Shown in pieces: positions 15,669 to 24,977 of a stretch of DNA of 32,871 nucleotides. The notes under the pieces were generated by a model, which was not told the origin of the DNA, ran no database searches, and saw nothing but the letters and a program-made list of their open reading frames with translations. Source of the DNA: an uncultured archaeon (GTDB taxonomy: Archaea > Halobacteriota > Methanosarcinia > Methanosarcinales > Methanoperedenaceae); NCBI GenBank assembly GCA_902386205.1, contig CABMIH010000061.1, forward strand, positions 1 to 32,871, written 5' to 3'. Both the position numbers and the translations under genes were made by a program. How positions within the stretch are numbered: the first letter of the stretch is position 1; each line of letters starts with the position of its first letter.

Positions 15669-17831
15669 TTATATTTTCTTAAAATACCCGGGATTTAACA
15701 CCGCCAGCCTCATCGCATTCACTATCACAAGAAGGGATAGACCCATATCTCCGAAAGCCACTGCCATCCAGAGCGTCACTATTCCAGGAAAAGCAAGAAC
15801 AGCAAAGCTCCCTTTTACTGCAATTGAAGTAAAGATATTCTCCTTAACTATCCCAAGTGTCTTTTTACTAAGCTCAAATAAATAGGGCAATTTTGATATA
15901 TCATCATGCATTAACGCTATATCGGCTGTCTCAAGTGCAACATCACTGCCGATAGCACCCATCGCAATGCCGACAGCCGCCTTTGCCAGTGCAGGTGCAT
16001 CGTTCACTCCATCACCTACCATAACTACCTTACCGTATTTATGATCCAGTTCTTCAACAATCCTGACCTTATCTTCAGGAAGAAGGCCTGCATGGTATTC
16101 ATCAATCCCAAGCTTGTTTGCAATTGATCCTGCAATCAGTTCATTGTCGCCTGTCAGCATCACCACTTTCATCCCTTTCTTCTTTAACATGTTTATGGTT
16201 TCAGGCGCAGCATCCCTGACCTTATCCATGATTGCAATAATTCCCATGCATTCCCGGTTCCCTATAAGAATCGCAGTTTTACCATCACTTTCAAGCTCCC
16301 TGACTTTTTCTTCCGGGAATGGAATTGATAGCCCGGAAAACATGGCAGGGCTGCCGATACAATAGGTGCTTCTGTCTATAACCCCTTTTACACCTTTGCC
16401 TGGAGTAGCTTTAAACCCGCTGACAGGTTTTAAACTCACTCCATCGCTCATGGCTTTTGAAACCATAGCCTTTGCCAGCGGATGTTCGGATAATGCCTCT
16501 ATGGATGCGGCCGTCTCAAGAATCTCTCTTGCTGAATAGTTATTTACTTCTATCGTATCCGTTACCACCGGTCTTCCTTCAGTCAGGGTGCCGGTTTTAT
16601 CAAAAACAAATACCTTTGCCTTTGCCATTTCCTCTATGTAATTTCCTCCTTTTATTAAGACCCCGTTCTTTGCAGCACCTGTTATTCCCGATACCATAGA
16701 GACAGGCGTGGAAATGGCAAGGGCGCAGGGGCAGGAAATAACCAGAAGGACCAGGGCTTTGTAAAGCCATTCATCAAAAGGCTGGCCGAAAACAAGGCAT
16801 GGAACAACCGCCACACCCATTGCCAAGAAGATCACTACAGGGGTATAATAACGGGCAAATTTATCAACGAACTTCTCGGTCGGGGATTTTTTTCGTTCAG
16901 CCTCCTCAACCAGCCTGACGATTTTTGAAAGTACCGTATCTTGCGACCTTTTTGAAACTCTAATTTCAAGATAGCCGTGTTCATTCAGTGTTCCAGCATA
17001 GACAGGGTCGCCTGTCTCTTTATGAACTGGCATCGATTCACCAGTAATCGCGGCCTGATTTACACTCGATTCCCCGCTCATCACAATACCGTCAAGAGGT
17101 ATTTTCTCACCCGGTCTGACAACTGTAATATCATTGATATTCGCATCATGAACGTGTACGTTGACCTCTTTACCGTCCCTTATTACAATGGCTGTCTCAG
17201 GCGCAAGCTTAACAAGCGCCCCTATGGATTTTCGTGCCCTTTCGCCTGCATAGTCCTCCAGGAACTCGGCAATGAAGAACAGATAAAGCACAGATGCCCC
17301 TTCTTCCCCGTAACCGATGGAGAAAGCTCCAACCGCGGCAATTGTCATCAGGAAATTCATATCAAGGTGTTTTTTAAGGAGCGAAGATATGCCCTTTTTA
17401 GCTATGCTGTATCCTGAAATTACTCCCACGAAAAGGAAAAGAATATGAGATAAAGCTTTCAATTCCGTTACGTATTCTATGTAAAGCCCAAGAACCAGTA
17501 ATACGGACGAAAGTACTATGATACGTATATTCTGCTGCTTCCAGAGAGGAAGTTTTTCCTCAAAAATATCTGTTGAACATGAGGAACAGCTTACTTCGTG
17601 ATCATCCTTCCCGTCTTCAAGAGCGGTATATCCTGCTTTTTCAATAGCCTCCCTGATTTCTAATGTGTTGGTGAGGGACGGGTCATACTTTATCGCTGCT
17701 TTTCTCGTAATGAAATCCACGTTTATCCCGGCGATACCGTTCAGTTTCCTGACTGCATTTTCCACGTTCATGGCGCAGGAAGGGCAGTCCATGCCTTTGA
17801 TTTTTGATTCAAAGTCCTTTAGCTCAACCAT
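15669..17831 (-). CDS. Heavy-metal P1B-type ATPase, probably Zn/Cd/Pb exporter
   Basis: This 720-residue membrane pump has an N-terminal HMA domain (GMDCPSC, C16 and C19), followed by a second Cys pair (SCSSCSTD, about residue 82-89). After the eight-helix core the usual motifs appear: TGES actuator loop, CPC in helix 6 (SCPCALAIS), the phosphorylated Asp in DKTGTLTEG, HPLA (SEHPLAKA) and GDGVNDAPAL. In the last helices, a Lys in IAVKGS and the DMGLSLLVIVNAMRL stretch fit the P1B-2 subgroup, which moves Zn2+, Cd2+ or Pb2+, rather than the Cu(I) subgroup. The upstream NikR-like gene, transcribed the same way, may regulate it. Confidence 0.93.
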   Translation of the reverse strand: MVELKDFESKIKGMDCPSCAMNVENAVRKLNGIAGINVDFITRKAAIKYDPSLTNTLEIREAIEKAGYTALEDGKDDHEVSCSSCSTDIFEEKLPLWKQQNIRIIVLSSVLLVLGLYIEYVTELKALSHILFLFVGVISGYSIAKKGISSLLKKHLDMNFLMTIAAVGAFSIGYGEEGASVLYLFFIAEFLEDYAGERARKSIGALVKLAPETAIVIRDGKEVNVHVHDANINDITVVRPGEKIPLDGIVMSGESSVNQAAITGESMPVHKETGDPVYAGTLNEHGYLEIRVSKRSQDTVLSKIVRLVEEAERKKSPTEKFVDKFARYYTPVVIFLAMGVAVVPCLVFGQPFDEWLYKALVLLVISCPCALAISTPVSMVSGITGAAKNGVLIKGGNYIEEMAKAKVFVFDKTGTLTEGRPVVTDTIEVNNYSAREILETAASIEALSEHPLAKAMVSKAMSDGVSLKPVSGFKATPGKGVKGVIDRSTYCIGSPAMFSGLSIPFPEEKVRELESDGKTAILIGNRECMGIIAIMDKVRDAAPETINMLKKKGMKVVMLTGDNELIAGSIANKLGIDEYHAGLLPEDKVRIVEELDHKYGKVVMVGDGVNDAPALAKAAVGIAMGAIGSDVALETADIALMHDDISKLPYLFELSKKTLGIVKENIFTSIAVKGSFAVLAFPGIVTLWMAVAFGDMGLSLLVIVNAMRLAVLNPGYFKKI

Positions 17832-17897: not shown

Positions 17898-18275
17898 TCA
17901 GACTGAACAGCGGCAGATCACGACATCCTTTACCGCTGATATGCGCTCTACGAACTGTTTGATGCTGTCATTATCTCCCTGGAGAATTACCCATTCGGCG
18001 CACCTGTCGCCAAAATGCGTGTGGGTTGCAGACTTTACAATATTTTTAAAATCGTGGATTATGTTGTGTACCGGCTGTTCTCTTTTATCGTCATAAACAA
18101 TAGTAGCGATGAAGGGAGTACTACTATCAATATGCTCTATCCATTTATTCTGGGCAACGAATCTATGAAGGGCTTCACGGACTGCATCCGAACGGCTGGA
18201 GAAACCCAGTTTATTCGTGATATTATCGAATTCCTTTAATTCCGGGCCTGAGAGTGATATGCTTATAACTACCAT
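17898..18275 (-). CDS. NikR-like ribbon-helix-helix metal regulator
   Basis: The 125-residue product has an N-terminal ribbon-helix-helix DNA-binding domain (VVISISLSGPELKEFDNITNKLGFSSRSDAV in two parts) and a C-terminal ACT-like metal domain. Candidate ligands are H70 or H74, then H85-T-H87 and C92, then a CRC end (C121, C123). E. coli NikR uses H87-x-H89 and C95, with five residues between the second His and the Cys. Here there are four. Metal preference is therefore uncertain; nickel is a default guess only. Its position upstream of the P1B ATPase suggests it senses the pump's substrate. Confidence 0.78.
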   Translation of the reverse strand: MVVISISLSGPELKEFDNITNKLGFSSRSDAVREALHRFVAQNKWIEHIDSSTPFIATIVYDDKREQPVHNIIHDFKNIVKSATHTHFGDRCAEWVILQGDNDSIKQFVERISAVKDVVICRCSV

Positions 18276-18348: not shown

Positions 18349-18564
18349 TTAGCTTCTTGCCGTTGCCATATATCCGAGATCGTTCACAGCTTTTGCTATT
18401 TCTGATGGTGTCACTATTGCCGGGTCGTACTCCACGACTGCCATTCTTTCATTCAATGAAACTTTCGCGCTCCTGACCCCTTTCTTTTTTCCAAGAGCGA
18501 GTTCTATGCCCGCTGAACATGAGCCGCAGCGCATTCCTGCTATATCAAGGATCACTTTTTCCAT
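18349..18564 (-). CDS. Small HMA-domain metallochaperone
   Basis: The 71-residue protein is a single ferredoxin-like HMA fold: KVILDIAGMRCGSCSAGIELAL with C13 and C16, then AKVSLNERMAVVEYDPAIV. This matches CopZ/Atx1-type carriers that deliver soft metals to P1B pumps. GAGGTG precedes its start. It is divergent from the 18772-19011 gene, and a TTTACA-N5-TGTAAA palindrome sits in the shared promoter region. Confidence 0.9.
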   Translation of the reverse strand: MEKVILDIAGMRCGSCSAGIELALGKKKGVRSAKVSLNERMAVVEYDPAIVTPSEIAKAVNDLGYMATARS

Positions 18565-18639: not shown

Positions 18640-18656
18640 TTTACAAGCAGTGTAAA
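18640..18656. promoter_or_regulatory. Palindromic operator candidate TTTACA-N5-TGTAAA (copy 1)
   Basis: Perfect 6-bp arms with spacer AGCAG. It lies between divergent genes, about 76 bases from the HMA-chaperone start and just downstream of a TTTTTAAAAG tract read on the minus strand. The same palindrome occurs twice more, at the ccm operon promoter. Confidence 0.6.
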
Positions 18657-18771
18657 CCTATGTACTTTACGCTTTTAAAAATTAAAATTAATTGGATTTT
18701 TTATCATATTTTTAAAGCGCAAACAAGATGAATAAACGGAGAAAAAGCTATGTTACAAGGAGAGACGAAAG

Positions 18772-19011
18772 ATGTCTATAATCGAATTAATGCTGGTCGT
18801 TTTCCTAATCAACCTGCCCTTTGGCTACTGGAGGTTCAATGCCGCCAGATTCTCAAGGCAATGGATGATGGCCATACATATTCCTGTGCCATTTGTGTTT
18901 TTATTGAGGATATTCGGAGGTTTTGGCTGGAAGGTTATACCGCTGCTCATGATATCCTTCGCCGCCGGACAATTCGCAGGTGGGAGACTTAGAAAATTTT
19001 ACACTCACTAA
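18772..19011 (+). CDS. Small integral membrane protein, unknown function
   Basis: The 79-residue product has about three hydrophobic segments (residues 4-19, 32-47, 52-67) and aromatic-basic turns (GYWRFNAARFSRQW). It ends in a basic tail (GGRLRKFYTH). AAGGAGAG lies before the ATG. A competing frame that starts 22 bases upstream lacks such a pattern and was set aside. I do not recognise the family. The divergent promoter shared with the HMA chaperone suggests a role in metal handling. Confidence 0.65.
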   Translation: MSIIELMLVVFLINLPFGYWRFNAARFSRQWMMAIHIPVPFVFLLRIFGGFGWKVIPLLMISFAAGQFAGGRLRKFYTH

Positions 19012-19133
19012 CGATACAGGTTTAAAATTTAAAAATAATCAGGTTAAAAATCTTACAAATTTAAAGCAAAACGACCATTAATAGAGGCAATGCATAACTG
19101 TACATAATAATATATCTTAAGGAGAATTGAAAA

Positions 19134-19328
19134 ATGGACTGTTGCGGATCAAGTAAACCGAAAGAAAACGACAAAGATGCAAAAATAGATCAAAAGAGCA
19201 ATGAAAATAATCCCGTCCAGAAAGAGCACGGCGGCGGTTGCTGCGGCGGCACCGGCAAGGGCATGTGGCTGCACCTGATACTGATGATCATCGTATTTTT
19301 AGCGATATCATATATCACAAGGAGATAA
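19134..19328 (+). CDS. Small Cys-rich tail-anchored protein
   Basis: The 64-residue protein starts MDCCGSSK. It has a charged linker (about 8-30) and a second Cys pair in GGGCCGGTGKG. A C-terminal transmembrane helix (about 45-60) is followed by TRR. The two CC pairs face the same side and could bind one soft metal. TAAGGAG lies about ten bases before the start, with a TATA-like ATAATATAT near 19106. It is probably co-transcribed with the exported protein that follows after 5 bases. Confidence 0.68.
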   Translation: MDCCGSSKPKENDKDAKIDQKSNENNPVQKEHGGGCCGGTGKGMWLHLILMIIVFLAISYITRR

Positions 19329-19333
19329 AGAAC

Positions 19334-19681
19334 ATGAACAAAAAAACTCTTCTGGCAATCGGGATCCTTGGAATATTGCTGGTATTTGGCGCCGCAGTCG
19401 CACTGGCGCAGAATGCAAGTGAGAAGACAAAGGATGCAGAAAATCATGAATGCACATCTTTGATGATGGAGAATATGCCGGAAAACTGCCCGGATCAAAT
19501 GATGCAATCCGGCGCCTGTGAAAATATGATGGATGGCGCAAAAGGCTGCGGTGAAATGATGGACAAAAAAGAGCCGGCAGTGAGTAATACGGATAAGGCA
19601 GGAGAAAATCATTGCAGTGATATGGATTCTGGCATGGAATCGATGATGACAAAGCCTATGAAACGAACTCCGGTAGCGTGA
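19334..19681 (+). CDS. Exported Met/Cys-rich protein
   Basis: The product (115 residues from the ATG at 19334) has a clean signal peptide (MNKKTLLAIGILGILLVFGAAVALA in two parts). The mature part is acidic and rich in Met and Cys (ECTSLMMENM, CPDQMMQSGACENMMDG, GCGEMMDK, HCSDMDSGMESMM). The regular C-x(n)-MM spacing suggests exported binding of Cu(I) or another soft metal. An in-frame upstream extension exists but would overlap the preceding gene; AGGAGA at 19320-19325 supports this start. No family is recognised. Confidence 0.7.
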   Translation: MNKKTLLAIGILGILLVFGAAVALAQNASEKTKDAENHECTSLMMENMPENCPDQMMQSGACENMMDGAKGCGEMMDKKEPAVSNTDKAGENHCSDMDSGMESMMTKPMKRTPVA

Positions 19682-19732
19682 GTTCATATTAAGTTCGTAC
19701 TGTTAGTTGTTAATTTTTTTCATATCAGGGTT

Positions 19733-19760
19733 CACAGAGAGGATTATTTTTTTCTCTGTG
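19733..19760 (+). terminator. Hairpin downstream of the Met/Cys-rich gene
   Basis: CACAGAGA and TCTCTGTG form 8-bp perfect arms around a 12-nt T-rich loop, 51 bases past the stop at 19681. The position fits a terminator or processing hairpin, though no T-run follows directly. The surrounding 19682-20043 gap holds this, the 19899-19954 repeat and the ccm promoter, but no gene. Confidence 0.4.
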
Positions 19761-19898
19761 CTCTCATTTTTCAAATCAGAACATCATAAAAAATCTCGAT
19801 TCAACTCTTAACCGGTGATATATGAAAACAAATCAGTGTTTTAATTTACAATCTTAAACCACAACCTGCTTAAAAACGCAGTTTCTAATAAGTAAATC

Positions 19899-19954
19899 GG
19901 TGACCGGAAAAATTGCAGCATGAAACTTTTAACTTTTTTCCATCTTCGGTCACC
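19899..19954. repeat. Imperfect long inverted repeat upstream of the ccm promoter
   Basis: GGTGACCG pairs with CGGTCACC. Inside that, GGAAAAA can pair with TTTTTTCC past a short bulge. It ends about 20 bases before the ccm TATA box. It could be a regulatory site, a terminator or a trace of a small mobile element. Confidence 0.4.
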
Positions 19955-19974
19955 CTACCTATCCATTAACCGTA

Positions 19975-19984
19975 AACTATATAT
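19975..19984 (+). promoter_or_regulatory. TATA box of the ccm operon
   Basis: AACTATATAT precedes the two operator copies. Transcription would start near 20003-20010, inside or just past the first operator. Confidence 0.55.
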
Positions 19985-19988
19985 GGAC

Positions 19989-20005
19989 TTTACATCCATT
20001 GTAAA
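19989..20005. promoter_or_regulatory. Palindromic operator candidate TTTACA-N5-TGTAAA (copy 2)
   Basis: Perfect 6-bp arms with spacer TCCAT, extended by a C/G pair on the outside. It lies directly behind the TATA box, where a bound protein would block RNA polymerase. Confidence 0.65.
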
Positions 20006-20013
20006 GTTAAAGG

Positions 20014-20030
20014 TTTACAACCTTTGTAAA
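20014..20030. promoter_or_regulatory. Palindromic operator candidate TTTACA-N5-TGTAAA (copy 3)
   Basis: Perfect 6-bp arms with spacer ACCTT. Its centre is 25 bp from that of copy 2, and it ends 13 bases before the ccmE start. The pair looks like a double repressor site. Confidence 0.65.
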
Positions 20031-20043
20031 AGAGAGGATATGG

Positions 20044-20454
20044 ATGAACAAAAAGCAAAAAAACATGTTTGGCATCGGGATCGTAGCAATATTAATCCTG
20101 TACCTGAGCGCCCAGAGCTTCACCAATGCCCTCTCATATTACTATGAGGTCAGCGAATTCGTTGAAAAAGCGGATTCATTGAACGATAAAATCGTGAACG
20201 TGAACGGCAGCATAGTAAAAGGTTCGACAATATGGGAACCGGAAAAAGCAAGATTGACATTCAACCTGACAGATAAAAATGCCACCATCACGGTCGTATC
20301 GAACGAGGGGATGCCGGGGAATTACAAGGAAGGCATACCTGCGGTTGTGACCGGCTATTTCATAAACGGTACATTTGTCGCAAACCAGGTCGTCACGAAA
20401 TGCCCCTCAAAATACGGCGGGGATCTTGATCACGGAGACCATAACGAAACATAA
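20044..20454 (+). CDS. ccmE: CcmE-like haem chaperone, CXXXY type
   Basis: The 136-residue protein has an N-terminal membrane anchor (about 8-27) and an OB-fold beta barrel outside the membrane (DKIVNVNGSIVKGS ... ATITVVSNEGMPGNYKEG ... GIPAVVTGYFINGTFVANQV). The haem-binding end is C120-P-S-K-Y124. Classical bacterial CcmE binds haem covalently through His in HXXXY. Archaeal and some delta-proteobacterial proteins use Cys in CXXXY, and this one matches that type. The tail is His/Asp-rich (LDHGDHNE). It opens the operon, behind a GAGAGGA ribosome site. Confidence 0.88.
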   Translation: MNKKQKNMFGIGIVAILILYLSAQSFTNALSYYYEVSEFVEKADSLNDKIVNVNGSIVKGSTIWEPEKARLTFNLTDKNATITVVSNEGMPGNYKEGIPAVVTGYFINGTFVANQVVTKCPSKYGGDLDHGDHNET

Positions 20455-20466
20455 AGGAGAATTTTA

Positions 20467-22452
20467 ATGGAATTAGGAGAAACGGCATTAATCGTCGCGC
20501 TAATATTGACAATATACTCAGTTGCAGCGCACATATTAGGTATCTGGAAAAAGAAGAAAGAGCTGTTTGACAGCGCCAGGATCGCCATAATCGGTATCGC
20601 CGTGCTGCTTACCATAGCATCCATCTGGCTTTTTAACCTTTTCATAACCCGCAATTTCCAGTATGAATATGTCGCTCTATACAGCAGCCTGGATCTGCCA
20701 ATGGCCTACACGATTTCAGCGTTCTGGGCAGGGGCCGACGGCTCGCTGCTCCTGTGGGCATGGCTCATCTCCATTTACATCGCCGTGATCGCAGCGAGAG
20801 GAAAATCCTACGACAACCTGATAAAACATGCGATGCCTGTGATCCTTGCCACTCTCGCTTATTTACTCTTTATGCTGCTTACAGTGTCCCGCCCTTTCAG
20901 GATGCTTGATTTCATTCCAACCGATGGCAATGGCCTGAACCCCCTGCTTCAGGATCCTGGCATGTTCTTCCACCCACCCACCCTTTTCTGGGGCTACGCC
21001 GGGGTAATAATCCCGTTCGCCCTTATGATCGCGGGCATCTATCTTTCAGATAACACCTGGACATACCGTGCAAGGCGCTGGGCTCTGTGGGCATGGCTCG
21101 GGCTGGCCCTTGGCAACATGTTCGGAAGCTACTGGGCTTATACTGTACTTAACTGGGGCGGGTTCTGGGGCTGGGACCCGGTTGAGAATGCCTCATTCCT
21201 TCCCTGGCTCACACTCACGGCGTTCTACCACAGTACCATGATACAGGAACGAAAAGACGGGATGAAATTCTGGAACATCCTGCTGATACTTCTAACATGG
21301 GAACTCACTGTGTACGGGACGCTGCTAACAAGAAGCGGGATAATAGCATCGGTCCATACCTTCGGCCAATCCATAACCGCTCCTTATTATATCAATTACA
21401 TGGTCGTTGTGGCTGCGGCAACGCTCATACTTGTTGCATGGAAATATAACTCGATAAAGAGCAAGAAGATCTTTGAGTCCTTTGTCTCAAGGGAAGCAAG
21501 TTTCCTTTACAACAACTGGATATTTATGGCTTCCACGGCTTCGGTGCTGTGGGGTACGACATATCCACTGCTTTCCGAGGCGCTCCGGGGCTACAAGGTC
21601 ATGGTCGGCCCGACCTTCTACAACCAGATAAACGTGCCACTTGGAATAGCACTTCTTTTACTGATGGGCATCTGCCCCCTGATAGCCTGGAGGAAAGCAT
21701 CTGTATCGCATCTTGAGAGGAACTTCACAAAACCCCTTGCAGCAGCCGTTATCATAATGGCCGTCACCTTTGTCCTGGGGATACGTGACATGTATGCCCA
21801 GATAGCGGTCTTTGGAAGTGTGCTTGTAATATCCACACACCTGGTGGATATATCCAGGATAGTGAAAAAGCAGAAAAAGATCGAGGACAGGGGAGCTTTA
21901 AAGAACTTTTCAAGGGCTTTCTGGAACAACCGCCGCACTTTTGGCGGCTACATGTGCCATATCGCAATTCTTATGATAATCGTAAGCGCAGCGGGCGCTG
22001 TCGTCTATGAAAAGGCAGAGACCTTTAATATCAGGGTCGGAAGCACGGTCAGCCTCGGAGATTACGACCTCAAGATGACAAAGATAGACCAGTACACAAA
22101 AGACAACAGGGAAGTGACGGCGGGCCTGTTCGATGTATATAAGAATGGCGAGAAGGTACTGACCAATGCCAACGCACGGATGTACTATTATGAGAAGCAG
22201 GATAGCACGAACGTCAAGCCTATGGCCTATACGGTAGGCATGGACGACCTCTATTTTTCAGCGCAGGCTTTTGCCGGCGACAGTGCCACGGTCAAGATCA
22301 AGGTGATGCCCATGATGTTCCTGATGTGGATTGGAGGATTCTACGTCCTTATCCTCGGGATACTGGTATGCGTGTCAACAACCGTACCAATTAGAAACAA
22401 AATATCCGATGAGATGAATATAAATATAACTAATAAAATGGAGAATGTATGA
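20467..22452 (+). CDS. ccmF: Cytochrome c haem lyase subunit CcmF
   Basis: This 661-residue multi-pass membrane protein moves haem from CcmE to apocytochrome c. The tryptophan-rich haem-handling motif WGGFWGWDPVENASFLPW (about residues 229-246) is intact. His residues in the flanking loops (PPTLFWGY, then FYHSTM and SVHTFG) fit the family. The early ENPF-like region reads WAGADGSLLLWAW. A late extracytoplasmic domain (NIRVGSTVSLGDYDLKMTKIDQ, split) is typical. AAGGAG lies nine bases before the start; the stop overlaps the next ATG by four bases. Confidence 0.95.
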   Translation: MELGETALIVALILTIYSVAAHILGIWKKKKELFDSARIAIIGIAVLLTIASIWLFNLFITRNFQYEYVALYSSLDLPMAYTISAFWAGADGSLLLWAWLISIYIAVIAARGKSYDNLIKHAMPVILATLAYLLFMLLTVSRPFRMLDFIPTDGNGLNPLLQDPGMFFHPPTLFWGYAGVIIPFALMIAGIYLSDNTWTYRARRWALWAWLGLALGNMFGSYWAYTVLNWGGFWGWDPVENASFLPWLTLTAFYHSTMIQERKDGMKFWNILLILLTWELTVYGTLLTRSGIIASVHTFGQSITAPYYINYMVVVAAATLILVAWKYNSIKSKKIFESFVSREASFLYNNWIFMASTASVLWGTTYPLLSEALRGYKVMVGPTFYNQINVPLGIALLLLMGICPLIAWRKASVSHLERNFTKPLAAAVIIMAVTFVLGIRDMYAQIAVFGSVLVISTHLVDISRIVKKQKKIEDRGALKNFSRAFWNNRRTFGGYMCHIAILMIIVSAAGAVVYEKAETFNIRVGSTVSLGDYDLKMTKIDQYTKDNREVTAGLFDVYKNGEKVLTNANARMYYYEKQDSTNVKPMAYTVGMDDLYFSAQAFAGDSATVKIKVMPMMFLMWIGGFYVLILGILVCVSTTVPIRNKISDEMNINITNKMENV

Positions 22453-22865
22453 TAAAAAAGATAATAGCCATTTTGTTCTTCCTGACGGTGACTGCAATAC
22501 CGGTATTGGCCGTAACCGAAGAAGATATCACGGCAAACCTGAACTGCCCGGACCAGGGAGGCTGCGTAATGATAGTGATCGATTGTACCTGCCCGAGCTC
22601 ACTTGAAATAAAAGACAAGGTCAGAGCGATGCTGGGTCAGGGTATGTCTGAAAAACAGATATACACCAAACTTTCTGAGGAATACGGCAGGGAGGTACTG
22701 GCAACCCCACCCAAGGAAGGGTTTGACTGGATAGTCTGGCTCGCGCTACCAGTTGGAGTCATTGTGGGCGGCGTTGTTGTTTATAAGATCAGTAAGAAAA
22801 AAATGGATGAGAACGAGATATTTGAATATGAATACCAGAAATTCCTTCAGGAGAAAAAACAATGA
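22449..22865 (+). CDS. CcmH-like thiol protein, copy 1 (modified Cys motif)
   Basis: The 138-residue product has a signal peptide (about 1-21), an extracytoplasmic CcmH/NrfF-type helical domain and a C-terminal transmembrane helix (about 94-113). The C-terminal half of the domain is conserved (IKDKVRAMLGQGMSEKQIYTKLSEEYG, then VLATPP). The usual LRCxxC motif is replaced by LNC33-x5-C39-x6-C46-T-C48. Family members keep apocytochrome Cys residues reduced for haem attachment; four Cys here suggest altered chemistry or metal binding. It overlaps both neighbours by four bases. A second copy lies at 24492-24977. Confidence 0.8.
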   Translation: MIKKIIAILFFLTVTAIPVLAVTEEDITANLNCPDQGGCVMIVIDCTCPSSLEIKDKVRAMLGQGMSEKQIYTKLSEEYGREVLATPPKEGFDWIVWLALPVGVIVGGVVVYKISKKKMDENEIFEYEYQKFLQEKKQ

Positions 22866-24499
22866 ATAAATTATTTTATGTTTTAATCACTCTCATGATC
22901 CTGGGTAATGCTGCTTCAGCGGTAGAGATCAGCGGCAGCGTTACGTCTCTCGGCAAAAAGCTCGCAGACCAGAAAGTCATGCTGAGCAAAGTGAACGCCA
23001 CACAGAGTCCCGAAACCGGGGTCGTATATGATTTCACATTACTGGCAGAAACAACCACGGATAAAGATGGGGCTTATGCTTTTAGCAACCTCAACAACGG
23101 GATGTACAGGATCAATGTTACCTACGATGGGATAACATACGGGGAAAATACCGGCCTCCAGGGAAATGCTGTCATGGATTTTAACCTCTCTGGAAAGCTG
23201 GATGGATATGTTCTTAAAGAAAACAGGACACTTGAAAGGATACCTGTCAGGCTGATCGATGCGACAGGTATCGAGGTCATGAACACTCTCACTGATAAAA
23301 GCGGGAAATACTCTTTTAATAAAGTCGATGCAGGCAAGAGTTATTTTGCAGAGGCAAATTATTCAGATGTACCTTACACACAGGAGGTAAATGGATCTGA
23401 AATGGTTAATTTCACGGTTTATGAATCCACCAAAGAAGGAGACATAATCAGCGTGAATATTGACCATATCGTCTTTTCCAGGGCGCCGAATGGTATAAAA
23501 GTTGATGAGTACGTTGAGTTCACAAATACCGGGAACAAGGTGTTCTTCAGCAAGGACCGTGTATGGTTTGGGATTTCAACACCCGAAGGGATAACACGGT
23601 TCCAGACGGATGCAATGGAATGCTGCCTGCAAAGGGAGAAGGATGCTGCCTGGATAGACCCCATGAAGCCCATCATGCCCGGGGAGGCGTTCAGCGTACA
23701 GATATCCTATGTATTTAATCCAGAATCATCTAAAAATACGTTTTATAAAGACATGATTTATAACGCATCCTACCTCACCATGCTTTCGGAAAAAAACAAT
23801 GGTTTCGGGATTGAAAGCCAGAATGGCAAGAAGGATATAGTCCCAAATGAAGGGAAGGAATTTGAAGTCCTGAGCTTTTCCGGCCTCCCGAAAGGTGAGA
23901 AAATAGATGTCAGGATAACAGGTTATGTTCCTTCAACGACCGGCATCGGAGGGGAGTCCAGCTATCTGATACCTCTTGCTGCAATAGTGCTGATCGGGGC
24001 AGTTTCCTATCCGCTGCTCAAAAACAGGCTGGCAAAAAAACCTAAAAGGCGTTTTATCAGGCCTGCAACCCAGAACACGACCGGTGAGCCAGAAGGAGCG
24101 CCGATGGAAGGCATTCCGCAAACAGTTCCGGAGTATGTGCCGGGAAGAGATATCAATGAAATGTCATTCGATGAATTGCTCGCTGAGAAGAATGCCACGT
24201 TCGAATCGATCATGAGCCTTGAAACTAAATTCAATGCAGGGGAAATCCAGGAAAAAGAATATAAAGAGCGGAAGAAGGAAAACAGGGAGAAATCATTGCT
24301 TGTCATAAAACAATTAAAGGATGCGGCTTCAAATCTTGACCTTCAGCAGCCGGTCCCTGTCCTTGAAAAAGCAATAGCGCATATAGACGACATAGACATC
24401 CTTGAAGACCTGCTGGAGCGGGAAACGGAAGGAGAGAACAGGGATGAACTGAAGGAGATGATCGGGCAGAGAATAGAAGATATCGAACAAAATGAGTAA
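22862..24499 (+). CDS. MECC-motif membrane protein, long form with Ig-like repeats
   Basis: The 545-residue product has a signal peptide (1-20). Two carboxypeptidase-regulatory-like beta domains follow (about 21-110 and 111-187, with TTDKDGAYAFSNL and LTDKSGKYSFNKV). A core domain of about 190-345 carries the vicinal pair M252-E-C254-C255-L. One transmembrane helix (about 365-383) leads to a charged cytoplasmic coiled coil. The core aligns closely with the protein at 24974-25852 through IDHxxF, SKDxxxF, ISTP, MECCL, MDPM and IYN. I know no named family for the core. Its place behind a CcmH-like gene suggests it binds or passes thiols or haem outside the membrane. Confidence 0.72.
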   Translation: MNKLFYVLITLMILGNAASAVEISGSVTSLGKKLADQKVMLSKVNATQSPETGVVYDFTLLAETTTDKDGAYAFSNLNNGMYRINVTYDGITYGENTGLQGNAVMDFNLSGKLDGYVLKENRTLERIPVRLIDATGIEVMNTLTDKSGKYSFNKVDAGKSYFAEANYSDVPYTQEVNGSEMVNFTVYESTKEGDIISVNIDHIVFSRAPNGIKVDEYVEFTNTGNKVFFSKDRVWFGISTPEGITRFQTDAMECCLQREKDAAWIDPMKPIMPGEAFSVQISYVFNPESSKNTFYKDMIYNASYLTMLSEKNNGFGIESQNGKKDIVPNEGKEFEVLSFSGLPKGEKIDVRITGYVPSTTGIGGESSYLIPLAAIVLIGAVSYPLLKNRLAKKPKRRFIRPATQNTTGEPEGAPMEGIPQTVPEYVPGRDINEMSFDELLAEKNATFESIMSLETKFNAGEIQEKEYKERKKENREKSLLVIKQLKDAASNLDLQQPVPVLEKAIAHIDDIDILEDLLERETEGENRDELKEMIGQRIEDIEQNE

Positions 24500-24977
24500 A
24501 CTTGAAAGAACATATGTGATGAAAAACGGTCCAAAGATAATACTGTTTATATTTTTCGTATCGTTATTTCATCAGGCAAATACGGCTATGGCGGATGAGG
24601 ATATGACATCTCACCTGATATGCCCTTGCGAATGCGCCATGATTATTTCAACATGCGATTGTTCTACTGCGATACAGGTCAAAAAAGAGATTAACCAGAT
24701 GAAGGAAAGCGGTTTTTCAGAAAAACAAATATTTTCAGCGCTTCAGGCGGAATACGGCATTGATATCCTTATGCACCCTGAGAAAGACAACCCGATACCA
24801 GTGTGGCTGGCAGGTATACCATTGGTCTTCATATTTGTTTTTCTTGGATACATAATGGCCAGGAAACCAAATCCGGATATTATACCCGTTACTGATAAGA
24901 AAATGTACGAACAGCGCTTTGAAGAGGAATACCGGAAATTTGTTTCTGATGAACCCGAAGATAAGGAGGAATTGTGA
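24492..24977 (+). CDS. CcmH-like thiol protein, copy 2
   Basis: The 161-residue product (or 152 from the ATG at 24519, which places the signal peptide better) is a paralogue of the 22449 gene. Its Cys cluster is C44-P-C46-E-C48 and C55-D-C57, with the shared (V/A)MI(V/I)xxxC(T/D)C pattern. Then follow GFSEKQIFSALQAEYGIDILM, a transmembrane helix (about 104-122) and a charged tail with EEYRKF, matching YEYQKF in copy 1. It has one more Cys than copy 1. It overlaps the preceding stop by eight bases if the first ATG is used. Confidence 0.8.
   Translation: MSKLERTYVMKNGPKIILFIFFVSLFHQANTAMADEDMTSHLICPCECAMIISTCDCSTAIQVKKEINQMKESGFSEKQIFSALQAEYGIDILMHPEKDNPIPVWLAGIPLVFIFVFLGYIMARKPNPDIIPVTDKKMYEQRFEEEYRKFVSDEPEDKEEL

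Follow-up and report, generated by a model that had tools for sequence, protein, structure and literature searches.

Repressors of the BlaI/CopY group bind operators given as TACANNTGTA, refined to RNYKACANNTGTMRNY, which have the form TACA-N2-TGTA (PMC7253601), and CopR of Pyrococcus furiosus recognises TTNNCAWWWTGNNAA (PMC7830388). CcmH is already known in ANME-2d, unlike in most archaea (PMC9012536), and the Ccm system of Methanosarcina has been the subject of an earlier genetic study (PMC9084895). The window considered here, i.e. the whole stretch of 32,871 nucleotides that was analysed (contig CABMIH010000061.1, from an uncultured member of the Methanoperedenaceae), contains the palindrome TTTACA-N5-TGTAAA, whose half-site is identical to that of the BlaI/CopY operators while the spacing differs by 3 bp. 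We consider it probable (about 0.8), on the sequence evidence given below, that this palindrome serves as operator for a winged-helix repressor of the BlaI/MecI type that is autoregulated, has an expanded regulon in the Methanoperedenaceae and has a membrane peptidase as its partner. A literature search on the palindrome in archaea and on Methanoperedens regulators gave nothing relevant, and, within an incomplete coverage, no BlaI-type regulator was found described for Methanosarcina or Methanoperedens.

The three perfect copies in the window are located where the initial annotation had placed them, and all three are intergenic, in line with the promoter location claimed for them (Table 1). 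The further statement that the window holds no other copy is correct for perfect copies but not for degenerate ones, as a copy matching at 10 of 12 positions, scored with a consensus derived from the relatives, is found upstream of the ccm pair. This degraded copy means that operators stand on both sides of the ccm TATA box, the order being operator, TATA box, operator, operator. With up to two mismatches allowed, the window gives seven matches against 2.16 expected, a number reached in none of 100 shuffles; the other near-matches fall within coding sequence (that at 18034-18050, for instance, in the gene for the NikR-like protein) and are probably fortuitous.

Table 1. Putative operators, promoter elements and neighbouring genes in the window
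Feature	Position	Strand	Evidence or context
Operator 1, TTTACAAGCAGTGTAAA	18640..18656	none	between the divergent genes for HMA chaperone and small membrane protein
Degenerate operator TATCCATTAACCGTAAA, 10/12 positions	19960..19976	none	overlaps BRE; precedes operator 2 by 29 bp
ccm promoter BRE/TATA CCGTAAACTATATATG	19970..19985	+	sequence; relatives arranged alike
Operator 2, TTTACATCCATTGTAAA	19989..20005	none	directly 3' of TATA box
Operator 3, TTTACAACCTTTGTAAA	20014..20030	none	25 bp from operator 2; predicted start/leader region
HMA metal chaperone	18349..18564	-	PF00403 E=7e-15
79-aa small membrane protein	18772..19011	+	divergent from operator 1; 14 cases beside site in relatives
ccmE, first gene of ccm operon	20044..20454	+	PF03100 E=1.6e-20
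ccmF	20467..22452	+	PF16327 and PF01578
ccmH-like	22449..22865	+	PF03918 E=5.7e-14
Second ccmH-like	24492..24977	+	PF03918 E=3.8e-9

The promoter block at operator 1 reads towards the HMA metal chaperone gene, and this orientation makes the chaperone the predicted target. In the relatives the block of promoter and site is flanked by the genes for an ABC ATPase and for the 79-aa membrane protein, the latter having no match in Pfam or NCBIfam. Two other genes of this region may be mentioned. A P-type ATPase with an HMA domain (15669-17831, minus strand) scores best as Zn/Cd/Pb-type (PRK11033) and not as a copper exporter, and its promoter carries no operator. The gene for a small Cys/Gly-rich membrane protein (19134-19328, plus strand; MDCCGSSKPKE...) has no operator in the window, and similar small proteins in three relatives (G002, G010 and G026) have one 12-44 bp upstream.

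Beyond the window, the organism's own genome (Candidatus Methanoperedens-type) contains 7 perfect copies against 1 for a reversed-pattern control, and 13 against 3 for the form TTTACR-N5-YGTAAA. The 34 Methanoperedenaceae genomes together have 193 perfect sites and 21 control matches, counts that are not independent across the family since one genus dominates it, and the corresponding numbers for 26 genomes from other families of the order are 15 and 10. One family member (G005) is without any perfect copy, and the R/Y consensus gives 8 sites there against 2 for the control, with sites of this form at the BlaI, thioredoxin and ccdA genes. The genomic context was examined for 205 unique sites. 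As many as 169 of the 190 family sites precede an ORF start by no more than 150 bp and seven lie solely inside ORFs, where many of the genomes are draft metagenome assemblies and gene starts were taken from simple ORF calls; one site within a beta-helix gene (C83:10479) was set aside as chance. The two checks proposed with the initial annotation, for copies within coding sequence and for conservation in related genomes, have thus been run, with the outcome that the sites are upstream of genes and kept in many relatives. The spacers of the family sites are of 105 different kinds, so that the two arms are conserved and the bases between them vary.

The genes downstream of the sites were identified with Pfam and NCBIfam, and counted by site, not as independent events, they are those for a CopR-like regulator (29), a LolD-type ATPase of a LolD/FtsX-type ABC transporter (28), CcmE (28), a thioredoxin lipoprotein (26), CcdA (20), a NapH-like membrane Fe-S protein of about 553 aa (15), the 79-aa membrane protein (14), HMA proteins (6) and CcmH (5). 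These recurring targets have unrelated spacers. In the aligned promoter classes the site comes directly after the TATA element, as in AACCACAATCCTTATATnACTTTACAnnnnnTGTAAA at the thioredoxin gene, and a second operator is found at -29 in 16 of 29 ccmE/ccmH promoters (11/24 for ccmE and 5/5 for ccmH). Pairs 24-25 bp apart are present at several ABC and ccmE promoters, the NapH-like gene sometimes has a second operator at 53-54 bp, and the number of extra operators per promoter is 0.39 as compared with 0.035 in shuffled flanks. Sites directly after the TATA element, together with second operators at fixed offsets, would fit a repressor that covers the promoter. The idea that the ccm operon has one regulator site in common with the region of the metal chaperone, placed so as to cover the start site, is supported by conservation in many relatives.

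Some copies of the NapH-like protein (L066:10987-12642 and relatives) have a Met/His-rich N-terminus. Two apparent targets, "HdrC" and "CarA", were at distances of 115-311 bp and turned out to reflect a small ORF, some 52 codons long, that had been overlooked. Its conserved, unannotated product (MTRQSRRKTTDRLHCTFSAIIDIFEMENNREPT...), which has no Pfam match, begins 2 bp downstream of a perfect operator and occurs in about 14 genomes (e.g. L157 2201, L175 2201 and L170 2201). A second palindrome, TTCGTA-N4-TACGAA, is present just upstream at these loci, and we take it to resemble an MsvR site.

As regulator, the initial annotation had offered a NikR-like or an ArsR-type protein nearby, or neither. 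The NikR-like ribbon-helix-helix protein (17898-18275, minus strand) matches PF08753 and PF01402, and apart from these matches it has only its closeness to the operators in the window in its favour. Its gene is patchy within the genus, being detected in roughly one in three of the 34 family genomes and in none outside the genus, and its own promoter has no site; this distribution largely refutes it, and we regard its role as regulator as scarcely credible. An ArsR-family match was not found among the window proteins scanned. It is the third option, "neither", that agrees with our data, the best candidate being a BlaI/MecI-type protein of 119 aa encoded outside the window on another contig (G000:C4:8267-8623).

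The gene for this protein is present in all 34 Methanoperedenaceae genomes and in several other Methanosarcinales. The exact arrangement of operator, three nucleotides and ATG is found at the BlaI-type gene in 33 of the 34 genomes, where the control gives zero matches, and in the remaining genome TTTACR-N5-YGTAAA is separated from the ATG by 4 nt. In a named collection comprising Candidatus Methanoperedens, ANME-2, Methanosarcinaceae, Methanolobus and Methanosarcina, the operator is located 2-4 bp before the gene in 46 of 51 loci and in four more with one mismatch, the only named locus without it being an Archaeoglobaceae homologue. In family f2 the genomes that have the BlaI-type gene have sites at this gene, and those that lack it have no excess over the control. 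The same operator placement is seen for the Methanosarcina and Methanolobus proteins at about 60% identity, and this conservation is the strongest independent support for the BlaI-type protein as the probable regulator.

The assignment to the BlaI/MecI family is itself modest. The protein scores 37.2 bits against PF03965 (Penicillinase_R; cut-off 22.6, E=4.3e-9), the best of the competing HTH profiles, of which MarR and TrmB also score, and in Foldseek the structure model (pLDDT 82.8) matches MecI (1sd6) with a TM of 0.52 while MarR structures rank higher. An Asn-Phe pair (N111-F112) near the C-terminus is nearly invariant and may be a counterpart of the Asn-Phe bond at which BlaI/MecI are cleaved. 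The protein is cysteine-free in the own genome and in nearly all relatives, which makes direct thiol sensing or metal sensing of the CopY type unlikely. In two genomes (G003:C71, L122; G023:C214, L097) the CopR-like gene is immediately preceded by a second BlaI paralogue, which carries an operator of its own. Another class of PF03965 proteins (about 150 aa, E ~1e-21, L225-L231) was considered as regulator and rejected, the upstream regions having no such operator; in some genomes these form a separate PF03965 and M56 pair with GATAGTA-type repeats upstream, presumably a different operator.

The most frequent downstream gene encodes a CopR-like protein, and this product was first favoured as the sole regulator, i.e. 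as a copper-sensing, autorepressing Lrp/AsnC-TRASH protein that would control the whole regulon. The protein (G000:C4:6624-7223) is of the Lrp/AsnC type with a C-terminal TRASH domain, and its gene is preceded by a perfect site at a distance of 9 bp from the start codon. Of 33 near full-length orthologues, 30 show such a site at 5-9 bp from the ATG, which would fit CopR autoregulation as well. The P. furiosus site, with the operator pattern TTNNCA-N3-TGNNAA, has a half-site compatible with the palindrome (PMC7830388), and several of the regulon targets handle metal. However, its spacer is 3 as compared with 5 here, a homologue with 43% identity (G034) has no site, and the site in Methanosarcina is located at BlaI. 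Moreover, at least four genomes with a completeness of 93-97% are without an intact CopR-like gene (G002, which has a fragment only, G013, G015 and G026) yet still carry sites at their ccm, ccdA, thioredoxin, HMA or NapH-like genes, which the distribution of the CopR-like gene leaves unexplained. Since these genomes keep their sites and the BlaI-type gene is in all genomes, the CopR-like protein was dropped as sole regulator, and we find this explanation very unlikely. A variant in which both proteins share the operator, competing for or co-occupying tandem sites with a metal-dependent output, is also unlikely; in G000 the two genes lie close together, in G003 and G023 they are next to each other, with the BlaI paralogue first, and the half-sites TTTACA and TTNNCA are compatible, but the CopR-like gene as a target of BlaI is the simpler reading.

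The BlaI-type repressor, which we thus prefer, has a putative partner encoded next to it. In nearly all Methanoperedenaceae loci read, its gene overlaps by 4 nt (ATGA) with that of a membrane protein with an HExxH motif (HEAWH or HESWH), and in Methanosarcina the same membrane-protein gene follows closely 3' of the BlaI-type gene. The protein of 226 aa scores 35.1 bits against M48 (PF01435, cut-off 20.3) and 20.1 bits against M56 (PF05569), below the cut-off of 31, and the profile search gave no penicillin-binding sensor or other domain. Its model has N-terminal helices and a gluzincin domain, with HtpX, BlaR1 and ZMPSTE24 as the top structural matches, all weak (E>0.001). The peptidase gene of the organism's own genome is followed by one for an HtpX-like M48 protein.

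In Methanosarcina the operator region is common to the BlaI-type gene and a divergent operon for an FtsX permease, a LolD-like ATPase and an FtrD-like protein, which has two more operators 28 bp apart, and there are few other sites in those genomes. With these parts the operon may resemble the Campylobacter P19 and E. coli Fet iron-copper uptake systems, from which it would differ in being controlled by a BlaI-type protein. We infer an ancestral circuit of repressor, protease and ABC transporter, to which the Methanoperedenaceae added cytochrome c, disulfide and CopR-like genes.

The system can be compared to staphylococcal BlaI-BlaR1 and MecI-MecR1, which sense beta-lactams. A PF03965 repressor with autoregulatory placement of the operator, the TACA/TGTA half-site and a linked membrane gluzincin peptidase are common to both, whereas the operator spacing is N2 there and N5 throughout here, the archaeal peptidase of about 226 aa is without the penicillin-binding sensor and scores as M48 and not M56, the targets are cytochrome c maturation, disulfide and metal genes, and the promoters are archaeal. 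The copper repressors CopY/TcrY are of the same superfamily, with the same half-site and some metal-handling targets, but differ in operator spacing, and the C-terminal CxCxxxxCxC metal site of CopY is missing from nearly all Methanoperedenaceae copies. The archaeal protein scores 20.4 bits on the CopY profile, far below the cut-off of 121.95.

The sequences establish the palindrome, its promoter position, its targets and, across genera, its autoregulatory placement, and from them we infer that the BlaI-type repressor binds the palindrome and that the direction of control is repression. A dimer bound downstream of the TATA box and ahead of the start codon, and in the case of ccm over the BRE as well, would block TBP/TFB or RNA polymerase. 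In this way the repressor would control its own gene and, in the Methanoperedenaceae, the ccmE/ccmH operons, ccdA, thioredoxin lipoproteins, the LolD/FtsX-type ABC transporter, the HMA chaperone and the CopR-like regulator. The membrane M48/M56-type peptidase translated from the overlapping start may relieve the repression, as BlaR1/MecR1 do for BlaI/MecI, a step to which we give roughly even odds, and the signal could be the extracytoplasmic metal or thiol-redox state. More tentatively, the Methanosarcinales may have a BlaR1-like transmembrane signalling pair of repressor and protease, without antibiotic sensor, that reads the extracytoplasmic metal or thiol-redox state, with control of an FtrD-type ABC metal transporter as the ancestral function and later recruitment in Methanoperedens, where the pair would set the capacity for the cytochrome c maturation that serves extracellular electron transfer.

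As far as our incomplete literature coverage goes, no description seems to exist of how methane-oxidising archaea regulate cytochrome c maturation, and our analysis provides a defined operator, a named candidate regulator and a list of targets. Genetics exist for Methanosarcina, and the orthologue there makes the system testable although Methanoperedens has no genetics. Overall, the data suggest that BlaI-protease signalling in archaea may serve an envelope purpose in which antibiotics are not involved.
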